The notes under the pieces were generated by a model. The model saw nothing but the letters and a program-made list of their open reading frames with translations, searched no databases and was not told the origin of the DNA. 64,000 nucleotides of DNA, taken from Thiobacillus denitrificans DSM 12475 (GTDB lineage Bacteria; Pseudomonadota; Gammaproteobacteria; Burkholderiales; Thiobacillaceae). A program made the position numbers and the translations under genes. The stretch is taken from NCBI RefSeq assembly GCF_000376425.1, contig NZ_AQWL01000005.1, positions 94,166-158,165 of the forward strand, given 5' to 3'. Below, in pieces: positions 2,232 to 60,241 of this stretch (its first letter is position 1; each line of letters starts with the position of its first letter).

Positions 2232-3764
2232 ATGACCGAACCGCTGCTCGTTGCCAAAAACGACGCCATCGAACTTTTCCTGCTGCCGCAGATGGCCAAC
2301 CGCCACGGCCTCATCACCGGCGCCACCGGCACCGGCAAGACCGTCACCCTGCAGACGCTGGCCGAGCAGTTCTCCGCAATCGGTGTGCCCTGTTTCATGT
2401 CGGACGTAAAGGGCGACCTGTCGGGCGTCTCGCAGCCTGGCGGCGGCAATGCCAAGGTGGCCGAGCGGGTCGACTCGCTCAGGCTCGAAGGCTTTGCCTA
2501 TCAGGGTTATCCGGTCACCTTGTGGGATCCGTTCGGCGCCGGCGGGCATCCAGTGCGCGCCACGGTATCCGACATGGGGCCGCTGCTGCTGGGACGGATG
2601 CTGGATCTCAACGAAACCCAGAGCGGAGTGCTGAATCTGGTGTTCAAGGTGGCGGACGACAACGGCCTCTTGCTGCTCGACCTGAAGGACCTGCGCGCCA
2701 TGCTGGCCTACGTCGGCGAGAACGCCAAACAGTTCACCACCGACTACGGCAACGTGTCGCCGGCCTCCATCGGCGCCATCCAGCGCGGCCTGCTGGCGCT
2801 GGAGTCGCAGGGCGGCGAGCAGATTTTCGGCGAGCCGATGCTCAACATCGCCGACCTGATCCAGACCGACCGCGGGCGCGGCGTCATCAACATCCTGTCA
2901 GCCGACCGCCTGATGCAGTCGCCGAAAATGTACGCCACGCTGCTGCTGTGGCTGCTGGCGGAGCTGTTCGAGAACCTGCCCGAAGCGGGCGACCTCGACA
3001 AGCCGAAACTGGTGTTCTTCTTCGACGAAGCGCACCTGCTGTTTGCCGATGCGCCCGACGCACTGGTGGAAAAAATCGAGCAGGTGGTGCGGCTGATCCG
3101 CTCCAAAGGGGTCGGCGTGTATTTCGTCACCCAGAATCCGGCCGACGTCCCCGACAAGATCCTCTCGCAGCTCGGCAACCGCGTGCAGCACGCGCTGCGC
3201 GCGTTCTCGCCGCGCGACCAGAAAGCGGTCAAGGCCGCTGCCGAAACCATGCGCGACAACCCGGCGCTGGATGAGGCCGCCGTCATCACCGAACTCGGCG
3301 TCGGCGAGGCGCTGGTGTCCATGCTCGACGAGAAAGGCCGTCCTGGCATGGTCGAACGCGCCTACATCGTGCCGCCGCAGGGACAGATCGGCCCCATCAC
3401 CGCAGCGCAGCGCCAGCAGCTGGTGCAGACCTCGCTGGTCGCCGGCGCCTACGACAAGAGCATCGACCGCGAATCCGCCTATGAAAATCTGAAGGCGCGC
3501 GCCGAGCAGGCGGCGCAGGCGGCGGCGGCGCAGGCGGCGGCCGCGCAGGCCCAGGCGGAACAGCAGGCCAAAGCCGCCGCCCAGCCCGGCGCCAGCGGCG
3601 GCGGACTCGGTGACGTGCTGGGAGACATTCTGGGCGGACGCGGCGGGCGCCGCGAAGGGGCGGTCGAGGCGATGGCGAAATCCGCGGCCCGTTCCATCGG
3701 CAGCCAGGTCGGCCGCTCGCTCATTCGCGGCGTGCTCGGCAGCCTGTTCGGAGGCAAGCGCTGA
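2232..3764 (+). CDS. HerA-like ATPase of the DUF853/YjgR family
   Basis: Cytoplasmic P-loop ATPase related to HerA/FtsK DNA translocases and to E. coli YjgR; its biological role is not established. The 510-residue product has Walker A GATGTGKT near residue 28, Walker [14 protein letters not shown] in the middle, and the sensor region [21 protein letters not shown]. The tail (about residues 420-490) is rich in Ala and Gln, probably coiled coil, then Gly/Arg-rich before a small conserved C-terminal cap. The ATG at 2232 begins the conserved [10 protein letters not shown] segment. It is a single gene followed by an intergenic inverted repeat. Confidence 0.85.
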
Positions 3765-30524: not shown

Positions 30525-30908
30525 TCAGAACGCCGTACCGAAGCCCTTGTCCGTATCCAGCCGCAGGGAAGGCAAGCTGGCGAGCTTGTGGATCGGCACC
30601 AATACGCCGCGCGTATCCGGAACGGCATCGAACAGCATGTACAGGTACTTGCTGCCGCCCTTGAATTCATAGGTCTCTTCCAGGAAACGCATATGCTCGT
30701 GCGCGGCCAGGCAATCGCGCGACGTGCAATCCTGCTTGTAGTGCTCGATCAGGGAATGGATCACGCTCATGTGTTCATCGTTGACGGCGAAGTTCATGGC
30801 GGCCGCATTTCTGCTGACCGTTTCTTCCACCTCTTCTCGGGTCAGATACCTGACTGCGTCGTAAATCGGGATTTCACCGTCGTGAATCACGCTTTCGCTG
30901 TTGTTCAT
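30525..30908 (-). CDS. DsrC/TusE-like protein lacking the C-terminal cysteine
   Basis: A 127-residue protein. Its middle matches the DsrC/TusE fold: NDEHMSVIHSLIEHYKQD aligns with the 'HWEVIxFLRDYY' helix, and FKGGSKYLYMLFDAVPDTRG with 'GGSKYLYELFPxGP'. DsrC and TusE carry protein-bound persulfide on a C-terminal Cys in a G-L-P-K-P-x-x-C tail. Here the end reads ASLPSLRLDTDKGFGTAF, so that Cys is absent; the two Cys present (DCTSRDC) are internal. It may be a regulatory or non-sulfur-carrying paralogue. ATG 30908 follows GAGGAACC. Between AsmA and catalase genes. Confidence 0.75.
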   Translation of the reverse strand: MNNSESVIHDGEIPIYDAVRYLTREEVEETVSRNAAAMNFAVNDEHMSVIHSLIEHYKQDCTSRDCLAAHEHMRFLEETYEFKGGSKYLYMLFDAVPDTRGVLVPIHKLASLPSLRLDTDKGFGTAF

Positions 30909-56514: not shown

Positions 56515-56883
56515 GGGCTTCTCCTGTATCTATATATACGATGCAACCGCCGTGGAATTCCGGGGGCTGTCTCCACGACGAGCCAGCCCCGCCGGAATCG
56601 ACATGCGGACTGAAAATAAATACCGGGGTCCAAAAAGGGGGCGCGAAGCCAGCCCTGTTCCCCGGTCCTTGCGGTCGGAGCCATGCTGAAAGCGGAGTTT
56701 ATGAACGCGTTCGACCCGAATCGGAGGTCAATATGGGTTGCGGTGGGTGTTTCTTGATCAGCCGAAGCCGTCTCTCGGCTTCTTATGCCAATTTGGGTGA
56801 GAAGCCGCTTACTGGATCAAACTTGGCCGGCAGAAACCGGCTCGTTTCCGTCATTCGCGTCCAATGTGTTGATCGGCCGGTCG
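56515..56883. other. 369-bp region between the ECF42 operon and the IS element
   Basis: It contains the ECF42-type promoter and a TATATA stretch near 56531-56538. A short plus-strand frame from 56733 (MGCGGCFLISRSR...) runs into the IS end and is not recognisable. No gene is supported. Confidence 0.5.
56577..56603 (-). promoter_or_regulatory. Candidate ECF42-dependent promoter
   Basis: On the minus strand TGTCGA (56603-56598) and CGTC (56580-56577) are separated by 17 bp. This fits the published ECF42 pattern of TGTCGA at -35 and CGA/TC-type -10. It would start transcription some 55 bp before the first DGPF gene. Confidence 0.5.
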
Positions 56884-56914
56884 TGATCTTACCCACAGAC
56901 GATGGACAGTCGGA

Positions 56915-57769
56915 TCAGGCGATTGTTAATTCCTTGAAAGCCAGCGGAGCTGCGTAGTTGATGGTTGAGTGGTGTCGCTGACGGTTATAAAACACTTCCA
57001 TGTACTCAAACAGACTGGCACGCGCTTCATCCCGGGTTTGGTAGTCGCAGTGCATGACCAGGTCGGTCTTCAGGGAATGAAAGAAGCTTTCCATTGGCGC
57101 ATTGTCCCAGCAATTGGCTTTGCGGCTCATGCTCTGTCGGATCAGGTGCTTGCGGATGAGATCCCGGTATAGCCAGGTCGCGTAGGTCGAACCCCGGTCC
57201 GAGTGGACGATCTCGGGAACGCCGCGCCGGGCAATCGCCATCTGCAAAGCATCCGTTGCCAGTTTGCTGTCGAGGGATGGACTCATTCCCCAACCCACAA
57301 TGGCCCGTGAATACAAGTCCATCACCGCTGCCAGATACAGCCAACCTTCGCGTGTCGGAATGTACGTGATGTCGCTCAGCCAGCAGGCATTGGGGCGTTT
57401 GACCTTGAAGCGGCGCCGGAGGAGATTGGGCGAGACCGCCTTTGTATTACCCGAGTTGGTCGTAACCCTGAACTTCAGGATCGTCCGTGGGACAATCTGC
57501 TCCTGGCGCATCAATTTGGCGACGGTGTTGCGGCAACAGGCCACACCCTGGGCGGCAAGTTCGGCATGCACCCGGGGTGCCCCGTAGGACTGGCGGCTGG
57601 CGACGTGCGCTTCCTGAATCTTGAGGACCAACGCCGACTGACGTTGTGTTCTCGCGCTGGGCGGCCGGTTCCTGGCGGCATAGTACCCGCTTGCCGAGAC
57701 CCGCAACGCCTTGCACAGCGTGCGTACACAATGATCGTTGCGCTGTGTTTCGATGAAGGCGTACTTCAC
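56915..57769 (-). CDS. IS3-family transposase OrfB (DDE catalytic part)
   Basis: A 284-residue integrase-core protein. A HTH_21 part (SYGAPRVHAELAAQG) and the rve domain with DDE residues: Asp in CWLSDITYIPTREGWLYLAA, Asp in IVHSDRGSTYA, and Glu in NAPMESFFHSLKTDL. It is expressed by -1 frameshifting from orfA; the GTG at 57769 overlaps the orfA stop and is a possible separate start. Confidence 0.92.
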   Translation of the reverse strand: MKYAFIETQRNDHCVRTLCKALRVSASGYYAARNRPPSARTQRQSALVLKIQEAHVASRQSYGAPRVHAELAAQGVACCRNTVAKLMRQEQIVPRTILKFRVTTNSGNTKAVSPNLLRRRFKVKRPNACWLSDITYIPTREGWLYLAAVMDLYSRAIVGWGMSPSLDSKLATDALQMAIARRGVPEIVHSDRGSTYATWLYRDLIRKHLIRQSMSRKANCWDNAPMESFFHSLKTDLVMHCDYQTRDEARASLFEYMEVFYNRQRHHSTINYAAPLAFKELTIA

Positions 57770-58062
57770 ACCGATGCCTTCGCGAAGTAGATGGCCGCTT
57801 TTTTTAAAATCTGAATCTCCTCACGGAGTCGGGCATTCTCTTTGCGAAGCTTCTCGACGTCGTGCTCGGCGGTCGCCAACTCAGGCCGTATCGTCCCGTT
57901 GCGTTCCGCTTCCTCGAATTCCAAACGCCACTGGCGCAACTGGTTGACCCGAATCCCCAGTTCCCGCGCTACCTGCGCCTTGGTCTTGTCACCCATACCC
58001 ACCAGCCGTACTGCCTCAAGCTTGAATTCCCGCGTGTGGTGCCTGCGTTCCTTGCGTTCCAT
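57766..58062 (-). CDS. IS3-family transposase OrfA
   Basis: A 98-residue HTH protein (MERKERRHHTREFKLEAVRL, KAQVARELGIRVNQLRQWR) with a C-terminal leucine zipper (VEKLRKENARLREEIQILKK). The frameshift run (TTA AAA AAA G) lies in codons 84-87. ATG 58062 lies about 60 bp inside the right end. Confidence 0.9.
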   Translation of the reverse strand: MERKERRHHTREFKLEAVRLVGMGDKTKAQVARELGIRVNQLRQWRLEFEEAERNGTIRPELATAEHDVEKLRKENARLREEIQILKKAAIYFAKASV

Positions 58063-58293
58063 GACATACCCCTTCAGAGCAAGTATGCCCTCTCCAGACT
58101 GCCCACAAAACGTGGGTAGGATCAGGAGAGGTCATGCAGTCCTGTACGGTGGTTGCTCGCGGTTCTTTGCATACCGCTTGACCCATATTGAAACGCAAAT
58201 GATGTCGGTTTTTTTTACAGCCCCCCCCGCCCGGGCGAAGCCCCATCCACCAGTAAAACGTAACGTATTGATAGTCCACACAATCTATAAAAT

Positions 58294-58309
58294 TGGCGCG
58301 TTGCTTGCT
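58294..58309 (+). promoter_or_regulatory. Sigma-54 promoter of the PEP-CTERM gene
   Basis: TGGCGCGTTGCTTGCT fits TGGCRCG-N4-TTGCW at every position. It lies 54 bp before the ATG. PEP-CTERM genes are known targets of the sigma-54 activator PrsR in EpsH/exosortase bacteria. Confidence 0.8.
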
Positions 58310-58362
58310 TTGGAAAGTTTGCAGGTTATGTTTTCCTGTAGCCAGAATCAAAGGAGACCGAT

Positions 58363-58518
58363 ATGCGTGCATTATCTGCTGTAGCTTTGTGGGCACTCAC
58401 CTTAACAGCCTTCGCTGGAAATATACCAGCACCAAATCCCATTCCCGAGCCGGAAACCTTGGCCTTGCTGGCCATCGGTGTGCTGGGGCTGGCCTTGTCC
58501 CGCATCCGCAAGAAATAG
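58363..58518 (+). CDS. Minimal PEP-CTERM protein (51 aa)
   Basis: A very short exported protein: signal peptide MRALSAVALWALTLTAFA, a spacer of about ten residues (GNIPAPNPI), then PEPETLALLAIGVLGLALSR and the basic end IRKK. This is a complete PEP-CTERM exosortase signal (PEP motif, helix, Arg/Lys tail). ATG 58363 has AAGGAGACCG upstream. Almost no mature protein would remain after both cleavages. No exosortase (EpsH/XrtA) gene is in the window. Flanked by an IS3 element and a strong terminator. Confidence 0.85.
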   Translation: MRALSAVALWALTLTAFAGNIPAPNPIPEPETLALLAIGVLGLALSRIRKK

Positions 58519-58534: not shown

Positions 58535-58563
58535 AAAAAGCCGCGGTATTCCGCGGCTTTTTT
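58535..58563. terminator. Bidirectional terminator
   Basis: AAAAAGCCGCGG-TATT-CCGCGGCTTTTT with T-runs on both strands. It ends the PEP-CTERM gene and the convergent GMC oxidoreductase. Confidence 0.88.
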
Positions 58564-58564
58564 G

Positions 58565-60241
58565 CTAGAGATCCCGCTGCGCAAACGCAGCCCGGATGTG
58601 ATCGGCGGTGCGCAGGGCCAAGGCCTCGATGGTAAGAGAGGGAGATTCCCCGCCGCCTGAGCTTGGAAACACGCTGGCATCGGCGACATACAAATTTTTC
58701 CAGCCATGAGCGCGCCCGGTTGCATCAACCACCGAATTCCGGGCGTCGTGCCCCATGCGGCAAGTCCCGAATACATGGGTGGCACTGAAGAAATCGTGGG
58801 TTCCATACTCCTCCACCAATTCTTCAGCGCCTGTCGCCTGAAGAATATTCCGGCATGTCGTGGCCATGAACGCCATGCGCCGCAACTCGCTCTCTGGCAA
58901 AAAGCTGTGGATGCGCGCCGCCGGGTTGCCAAACTCGTCGCTCAGCTCCGGATCGAGATCCACAAACGAGCGTTCATTCGGCAGCGACTCGCCAATGGCG
59001 CCCACCGATAGCACGCGCCCAAAGTCCTGCCGCATGGCCTGCTTGTGACTTCGCCCCCAGCCGGATACCACGCGCCTGGCGTAGTTGACGGGCCCCACCA
59101 GATCCGCCTCGGCCACCCCCGATGCAAAACGGCAACCGCCTATCACCCCCGGGATGGCATCCGGTGCATTATGGCTCCAGCAAATGACATCCGCCGGCAA
59201 GCCCCGAAAACTGCCCAGATTATCCGGATGGAGCCCACTGCTATGCCAGGCAACCGTTTCCATGAAATGGCGCCCGACGAGACCATTTTCGTTGGCCAAC
59301 CCTTCGGGAGCGAACTTGTTTCTGGAATGCAGGAGCAACCTCGGCGTTTCCACGGCACCGCAGGCCATCACCAGGACACGGGTGTTGATCTTGTGCCGCA
59401 CATCTCCCTGGGTATATTCGACGGAATGTATCCGGCCATGGGATCCAGCGTTGATCCGCTGGACCGGGGCATTGGTTAGGAGGGTGCATTTTCCCGTCTC
59501 CAAAGCCTTGCGCATGAAGGTGACGTCAACGCTGCCCTTGTCCATGCGCGGGCAGCCGCGGTTGCAGTTTGCACAATAGTTGCAGGCAGGCCGGCCGTCA
59601 TAAGGCCGCGACAGCGCCGCGCGAGCGTTGGGCTCCCAGTGCAAGCCCAGCTTTTCACCGCTGCTGGCGAGCACTTGGCTGGCATAACTCAGGGGATGAG
59701 CGGGCAGGGGGAAATCCGCCCGACGCGAAACGAGGGAGTTCGCCCGACTACCGGCGACGCCGACGATATGTTCTGCGATTTCGTAATAGGGCTCCAACTC
59801 GGAGTAATCGAGCGGCCAATCTGCTGCCACGTCGAAGCGGGTATACATTTTCATGGCCTGCGGATTGAGTCGGTGCGCCTCTCCGGTGAAATGCAGGGTG
59901 CTGCCCCCCACACCCCGCACATGGTGATATTTCCAGCCATGGCGTCTGTTGGTCGCATTCAGCCTGCCTTGGACGCGGTTCCAGGAACGCAGGGTATCCC
60001 AGCGCGATTCAAGTGGCTGCATTTCGCCAAAGCCATAGACTGCCTTGTGCCTGACCTTTTCCTCGGGAAAGCGGGACAACTCCCAAGTGGCCTCATTCAG
60101 CTTGTAATCAGTCAAGGGATTGAACGCGGGACCGGCTTCAAGCACCAGCACCCGTATGCCTTTCGAGGCGAATGCCCAAGCCGCAGCAGCACCACCCGCC
60201 CCGGCTCCGATAATGACTACATCGTGATTCTGATCGCTCAC
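58565..60241 (-). CDS. GMC-family FAD-dependent oxidoreductase
   Basis: A 558-residue GMC oxidoreductase, most like the large subunit of membrane gluconate/sorbitol-type dehydrogenases. FAD fold VVIIGAGAGGAAAAWAFASKG, RGVGGSTLHFTGEAHR, and C-terminal HVFGTCRMGHDARNSVVDATGRAHGWKNLYVADASVFPSSGG (in pieces) with the GMC active-site region. A Cys cluster (CNYCANCNRGCP) is as in this subgroup. It overlaps the small Tat-signal subunit gene by four bases. The substrate is unknown. Confidence 0.88.
   Translation of the reverse strand: MSDQNHDVVIIGAGAGGAAAAWAFASKGIRVLVLEAGPAFNPLTDYKLNEATWELSRFPEEKVRHKAVYGFGEMQPLESRWDTLRSWNRVQGRLNATNRRHGWKYHHVRGVGGSTLHFTGEAHRLNPQAMKMYTRFDVAADWPLDYSELEPYYEIAEHIVGVAGSRANSLVSRRADFPLPAHPLSYASQVLASSGEKLGLHWEPNARAALSRPYDGRPACNYCANCNRGCPRMDKGSVDVTFMRKALETGKCTLLTNAPVQRINAGSHGRIHSVEYTQGDVRHKINTRVLVMACGAVETPRLLLHSRNKFAPEGLANENGLVGRHFMETVAWHSSGLHPDNLGSFRGLPADVICWSHNAPDAIPGVIGGCRFASGVAEADLVGPVNYARRVVSGWGRSHKQAMRQDFGRVLSVGAIGESLPNERSFVDLDPELSDEFGNPAARIHSFLPESELRRMAFMATTCRNILQATGAEELVEEYGTHDFFSATHVFGTCRMGHDARNSVVDATGRAHGWKNLYVADASVFPSSGGGESPSLTIEALALRTADHIRAAFAQRDL

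Follow-up and report, generated by a model that had tools for sequence, protein, structure and literature searches.

The window considered here is the whole 64,000-nucleotide stretch that was analysed from the genome of Thiobacillus denitrificans DSM 12475 (contig NZ_AQWL01000005.1, positions 94,166 to 158,165), and all coordinates are given from its first letter. It contains a very short gene for a protein of the PEP-CTERM type, together with its control elements and a convergent neighbour:

58203-58219, plus strand: motif 1 of the PEP-CTERM box, TGTCGGTTTTTTTTACA, predicted enhancer site for PrsR (exact pattern match)
58294-58308, plus strand: sigma-54 (-24/-12) promoter, TGGCGCGTTGCTTGC, of the form GG-N10-GC, 54 nt before the ATG
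58350-58357, plus strand: ribosome-binding site, AAAGGAGA, recognised from the sequence
58363-58518, plus strand: mini PEP-CTERM gene, ATG to TAG, 51 aa plus stop
58363-58416, plus strand: predicted signal peptide, MRALSAVALWALTLTAFA, 18 residues (-3/-1 rule, by inspection)
58417-58440, plus strand: linker GNIPAPNP, 8 uncharged residues between the predicted cleavage and IPEP, predicted mature N-terminal peptide
58441-58515, plus strand: PEP-CTERM sorting tail, IPEPETLALLAIGVLGLALSRIRKK (residues 27-51 align with positions 1-24 of 24 of TIGR02595)
58535-58563, plus strand: intrinsic terminator, stem GCCGCGG-TATT-CCGCGGC followed by T6
58565-60241, minus strand: convergent GMC oxidoreductase gene (PF05199, PF00732)

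The sorting tail of the mini-protein is recognised by PF07589 at 30.3 bits (E 3.9e-7; cut-off 20.7) and by TIGR02595 at 25.1 bits (cut-off 16), and in its signal peptide, read by eye, A-F-A occupies positions -3 to -1 and is followed by GN. When all six frames of the window are divided from stop to stop, 2357 segments result, and this is the sole one in which [VIL]PEP lies 18-28 residues from a basic end. NCBIfam has no model for the whole mini-protein, and the listed PEP-CTERM subfamilies match it mainly through the tail, far below their cut-offs; single mini-proteins are probably named ‘PEP-CTERM sorting domain-containing protein’ by the NCBI pipeline. The terminator stem is lengthened by A-U pairs to 13 pairs in the fold and, from its position, could also serve the convergent GMC gene. 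An IS3-family element occupies positions 56875-58134 approximately, with orfA and orfB on the minus strand and imperfect terminal repeats around TGATCNTACCCAC; about 70 nt separate its end from motif 1 downstream, and the corresponding locus of the congeneric genome G076 has other sequence there.

In the available text of Haft et al. (2006; PMC1569441), the PEP-CTERM box consists of a motif 1 ending in TTTACA, a spacer averaging 62.8 nt (range 32-92) and a sigma-54 motif, which lies on average 71 nt (range 23-221) from the start codon. Judged by its sequence, the window gene has this published layout, with a spacer of 74 nt between motif 1 and the sigma-54 box and 54 nt from there to the ATG. 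The sigma-54 box, which departs once from TGGCAC, is weak evidence if taken alone, because TGGCNCN5TTGC occurs at 64 sites in the genome against 26 for the reversed control. The pattern used for motif 1, TGTCGNNTTNNTTTACA, was written from the genes at hand, only TTTACA being taken from the text of PMC1569441, and in the genome of 3.6 Mb it has three perfect sites and 11 with at most one mismatch, against none for the reversed control. Six of these 11 sites precede PEP-CTERM-type genes, namely the mini gene, four conventional genes and one PEA variant (the gene at L196 being assigned by position), with spacers of 63-97 nt, two of which slightly exceed the published maximum of 92. The excess over the control and the genes that follow the sites thus make the sigma-54 box and motif 1, taken together, strong evidence of PEP-CTERM-type control. 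As for the other sites, those at L190 and L195 have sigma-54-like sites before other ORFs, that at L188 is near a short ORF and has no sigma-54 site, and those at L194 and L197 look like chance occurrences.

Two of these motif 1 loci deserve a separate mention. At L190 (G000:C2, box at 30640-30656), a 79-aa membrane-type ORF that has no PEP-CTERM tail follows a consensus sigma-54 box and a motif 1 with one mismatch; it is possibly a further member of the regulon. At L189 (G000:C9, box at 68376-68392), about 10 kb from xrtB, a PEP-CTERM box lies upstream of the gene for a 221-aa protein ending in VPEASTYGMMLAGLGLVGFAVRRRKLTA, which TIGR02595 did not detect in the profile search of the genome and which may be a PEA-variant substrate.

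The original prediction had described a minimal PEP-CTERM gene under sigma-54 control, and the 51-aa ORF, the tail scoring above the cut-offs and the full PEP-CTERM box bear it out; the ribosome site and the terminator that it named are present at 58350-58357 and 58535-58563. Its promoter call holds for the sigma-54 box at 58294-58308 but had overlooked the motif 1 enhancer at 58203-58219, which lies outside the stretch it covered.

The genome (38 contigs) encodes XrtA (TIGR03109, 362.8 bits, cut-off 208), XrtB (419.6 bits, cut-off 275), PrsK (921 bits, cut-off 300) and PrsR (772 bits, cut-off 502.6). The search for prsK/prsR and xrtA that had been proposed thus found all three above their cut-offs, and the lack of any exosortase, which had been named, along with a missing transcript, as speaking against the prediction, is excluded by the presence of XrtA and XrtB. 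In particular, XrtA is fused to EpsI, XrtB is accompanied by a separate EpsI, and a block PrsT-PrsT-PrsR-PrsK-EpsB contains two adjacent prsT genes (L241, 4559-10217). The exosortase genes are not adjacent to the mini gene, and six PEP-CTERM matches in the genome, the mini gene counted, reach the cut-off.

With a profile built from a three-member alignment, full-length mini-proteins were recovered from 10 of the 57 congeneric genomes, the seeds themselves among these 10, with E values from 1.8e-31 to 1.6e-16; the next match was the tail of a long protein at 1.6e-8, and a further match came from G024 (C1:2592782; E 4.3e-8, frame 112). All 10 congeneric members match TIGR02595 at E<=0.01, and the 13 families that they match are all PEP-CTERM or exosortase-dependent. 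In eight of the 10 (G001, G012, G016, G024, G027, G032, G066 and G067), the mini gene is found at one and the same junction, after ispH and facing a type IV minor pilin gene. In G032, ispH was recognised by TIGR00216 and the pilin by PF16732, and in the other junction genomes both genes were recognised by sequence pattern; for G027, in which the mini gene is on a separate contig, locus L081 was used. For this junction, noted also at L082 (region 1264-1722), the pilin of G032 is ComP-like (PF16732, 80 bits).

In order to describe the junction across the genus, 30 ispH loci (L198-L227) were read out of 50 genomes with a match. The mini gene is present in seven of them, the pilin follows ispH after 1-73 nt with no mini gene in 11, it is 660-770 nt away in four, and no pilin is found in the stretch read in eight, the window genome included, three of these eight stretches being ended by a contig end. 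Since the junction is occupied in some congeners and empty in others, the mini gene and its box are an accessory insert, or a loss, of about 0.4 kb.

In the window genome and in G076, the mini gene adjoins the GMC oxidoreductase gene rather than the ispH junction. The G076 orthologue has 80% protein identity with a dN/dS of 0.35, and the two loci are 81.5% identical in DNA over 249 bases, with an identical sigma-54 box. In 36 other congeners, G076 not being one of them, nothing matches the GMC gene at E<=1e-60, and this neighbour was dropped as a clue to function, being absent from those 36 while the mini gene stands elsewhere in eight genomes. Some further candidates were not counted as mini-proteins: G062, flagged at the junction by a loose pattern, has a frame without the basic tail, and short frames picked up by the PEP-CTERM models were dropped as fragments, namely L078 in G001, the terminal part of a longer gene that a stop interrupts, L079 in G032, 75 aa without a signal peptide, and L080 in G023.

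The proposed search for similar mini-proteins was also successful beyond the genus. Thauera sp. THA1 (L119) encodes a mini-protein whose gene is preceded by a perfect motif 1 and, about 163 nt away from it, a consensus sigma-54 box. In searches of 399 genomes of the order and 369 of the class, in which at most 16-18 candidates per genome were scored, at least two more in the order pass E 1e-9 (L117, L118), and in the class at least seven mini-proteins are found among the 13 non-own matches at E 1e-7, the other six being four long proteins and two loci placed in neither group (L238, without an ATG, and L240/G051). Among the at least 68 contig loci listed, five have frames of at most 130 aa; two of these are mini-proteins (L119 and L123) and three are not, and L123, from Thiobacillus sp. 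RC343_metabat.bin.22, has the same mini-protein as G076. No related plasmid sequence was found at E 0.01.

In all, 20 mini-proteins were read, from the congeners, from Thauera and from others in the order and class. Motif 1, with at most two mismatches in the 320 nt upstream, accompanies 15 of the 20 genes, against 0.1 expected when each stretch is resampled 200 times under a first-order Markov model; those without it are L117, L229, L230, L233 and L234. On a loose score, a GG-N10-GC site follows motif 1 after 52-109 nt in 14 of the 15, several of these distances slightly exceeding the published 92. Outside the genus, purine-rich stretches precede the start codons, weaker in L118 and L233.

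The dN/dS values, between 0.08 and 0.35 in eight of nine pairs, indicate purifying selection, the ninth pair being saturated and the lowest value having a dS of 3. A chance ORF was rejected on the strength of the full-length relatives in 10 of 57 congeners, eight of them at one junction, of purifying selection, and of its being the sole such segment among 2357. Selection is unevenly distributed along the protein: in the eight junction orthologues, pN/pS is 0.20 in the tail, 0.45 in the signal peptide and 0.64 in the linker. Constraint is thus strongest in the tail and weakest in the linker, which favours a role at the exosortase over a sequence-specific peptide signal. Of the roles that the original prediction had suggested, a decoy or regulator of exosortase or else a released peptide, this leans towards the former.

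The same anatomy is found in all of the 20 mini-proteins. Each has an N-terminal segment resembling a signal peptide, and in most of them a plausible A-x-A-type cleavage site, judged by eye and by pattern, precedes the linker. The linkers have 3-10 residues and no common sequence; they are rich in Pro, Thr, Ala, Val, Gly, Asn and Ser, and only 5 of their 140 residues are charged, against 29 of 280 in the eight residues before xPEP of 35 long proteins (p 0.02). This near-absence of charge, together with the constraint that the linker does show (pN/pS 0.64), could mean that the peptide matters. The tail ends in K/R in 20/20 mini-proteins against 2/35 long ones (L025 was left out of 36 long-protein loci by the filter), and Ala follows PEP in none of the 20 against 24 of 31 long tails, a set that leaves out the near-identical L021, L027, L033 and L074 (27 of 35 with them). 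Furthermore, a profile model of the mini tails is the better one for 16 of the 20 mini tails, and a model of the long tails is better for all 31 long ones. The window tail fits the long model better (42.5 bits vs 40.8 for the mini model), as do those of G076, Thauera and L230, so that four of the 20 do not separate. These tail differences are partly built in, because the searches past the first three members used mini profiles, and the junction set, being defined by position, is the cleanest.

The window mini-protein shares with the known PEP-CTERM/XrtA proteins (TIGR02595/PF07589; PMC1569441) the tail, the monocistronic gene, motif 1 with the sigma-54 box, and the machinery in the genome, and its N-terminus is a putative signal peptide like theirs. 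Unlike those proteins, the mini-proteins have no cargo domain, only 3-10 residues separating signal peptide and tail, and in none of the 20 is PEP followed by Ala, while all 20 tails finish flush with K/R. PepA (NF033554) is the product of an RpoN-dependent PEP-CTERM gene in the available text of Xia et al. (2023; PMC9850573), the model and the pepA of that study being equated by name only, and there over-expression of pepA restored flocs and moved exopolysaccharide from the soluble to the bound state; the window mini-protein, however, matches only the tail of this 261-position model (28.5 bits, cut-off 80) and the body is missing. EDSAP-1 (NF041538) and THxN (NF038125) also match in the C-terminal stretch, with 28.9 and 28.7 bits, but these scores are far below the cut-offs of 100 and 85, and the bodies are again missing.

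Starting from the gene, tail, box, machinery, recurrence and selection documented here, we tentatively favour the reading that, on sequence grounds, the mini-protein could be a cargo-less exosortase substrate acting at the exosortase, a reading that we hold to be somewhat short of probable. Acting through motif 1 and the -24/-12 box, PrsK and PrsR would switch on transcription by sigma-54 RNA polymerase, so that the gene would be a single-gene unit of the PEP-CTERM regulon, co-induced with the other PEP-CTERM proteins. The 51-aa product would be exported by Sec and its signal peptide cut after AFA, and the tail would remain in the inner membrane, its IPEP lying on the periplasmic side, to be recognised by XrtA or, less likely, XrtB. 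There the mini-protein may occupy or tune the exosortase as a competitor, timer or load sensor. Since the cargo amounts to only about 8 variable, mostly uncharged residues, it is most likely the tail that does the work.

The peptide itself might instead be the product: XrtA would cut at PEP and release it or join it to a lipid or exopolysaccharide, as a decoration or linker of the matrix. The composition of the linkers, with their 5 charged residues in 140, is in keeping with this, as are the enrichment of Thr, Ser and Asn in PEP-CTERM proteins, reported in the available text of Haft et al. (PMC1569441), and the resemblance of the window tail to ordinary, presumably cleaved, tails. The linker is, however, the least constrained part of the orthologues (pN/pS 0.64 vs 0.20 for the tail), and with its varying length and no shared sequence a sequence-specific signal is unlikely; a peptide product, for example as a generic decoration, is possible, though we consider it rather unlikely. 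Retention of the signal peptide would yield a small membrane hairpin, which might have a regulatory role, on PrsK for example. None of the 20 mini-proteins has lost either hydrophobic segment, and constraint on the signal-peptide part is moderate (pN/pS 0.45), but a plausible A-x-A-type cleavage site is present in most of the 20 and co-regulation is the sole link to PrsK, and such a hairpin seems improbable.

It is similarly improbable that these are ordinary small PEP-CTERM surface proteins with no special role. They have the same regulatory box as the long PEP-CTERM genes and an accessory distribution (10 of 57 congeners), but there is no domain to present at the surface, and the recurring architecture, with a flush basic end in 20/20 against 2/35, also speaks against this reading. 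A longer PEP-CTERM gene that was decaying after the loss of its middle would keep promoter, signal peptide, tail and terminator, and an IS3-family element is closely upstream; moreover, a 225-aa protein of ‘Candidatus Accumulibacter vicinus’ (L124, about 2491-3165) has a similar tail, VPEPETLALLAIG, and a signal peptide weakly similar to that of the window protein (E 0.32). Yet 10 congeners, and genomes outside the genus, retain the short form, dN/dS is low, linker length changes in-frame, the ribosome sites are good, and the N-terminal 26 residues of the window protein match, among the loci fetched, only their own locus and G076/L123 at E<0.1. Decay is thus very improbable; the tail and the weak signal-peptide likeness of L124 make an ancient origin from a long gene possible, and the short form is now maintained.

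No report of cargo-less PEP-CTERM proteins was found in the openly available literature searched, and no family model of them in NCBIfam. In the parts of the literature available to us, the acceptor of the exosortase was left unknown in 2006 (PMC1569441), the mechanism was called unresolved in 2023 (PMC9850573), and in 2025 each such enzyme ‘may function as a transpeptidase’ (PMC11980579; on the exosortase in general, see also PMC12188702). The chemistry of the exosortase, whether it cuts or cuts and transfers, and onto what, therefore seems to be still open in the literature. As putative natural substrates, the mini-proteins, 47-57 residues long and carrying a cargo of just 3-10, are close to the smallest conceivable for probing the exosortase, and with these sizes both products would be small enough for mass spectrometry.

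Returning to the favoured reading of a substrate that acts at the exosortase, its extension to a class of widespread cargo-free exosortase ligands, co-induced by PrsR and sigma-54 and regulating the enzyme by occupancy or by a signalling tail stub, is in our view doubtful. If mini-proteins do tune the exosortase, they would add to the sorting system a control layer that was not found in the literature searched and, if true, this would be a built-in pseudo-substrate for a Gram-negative protein-sorting enzyme.
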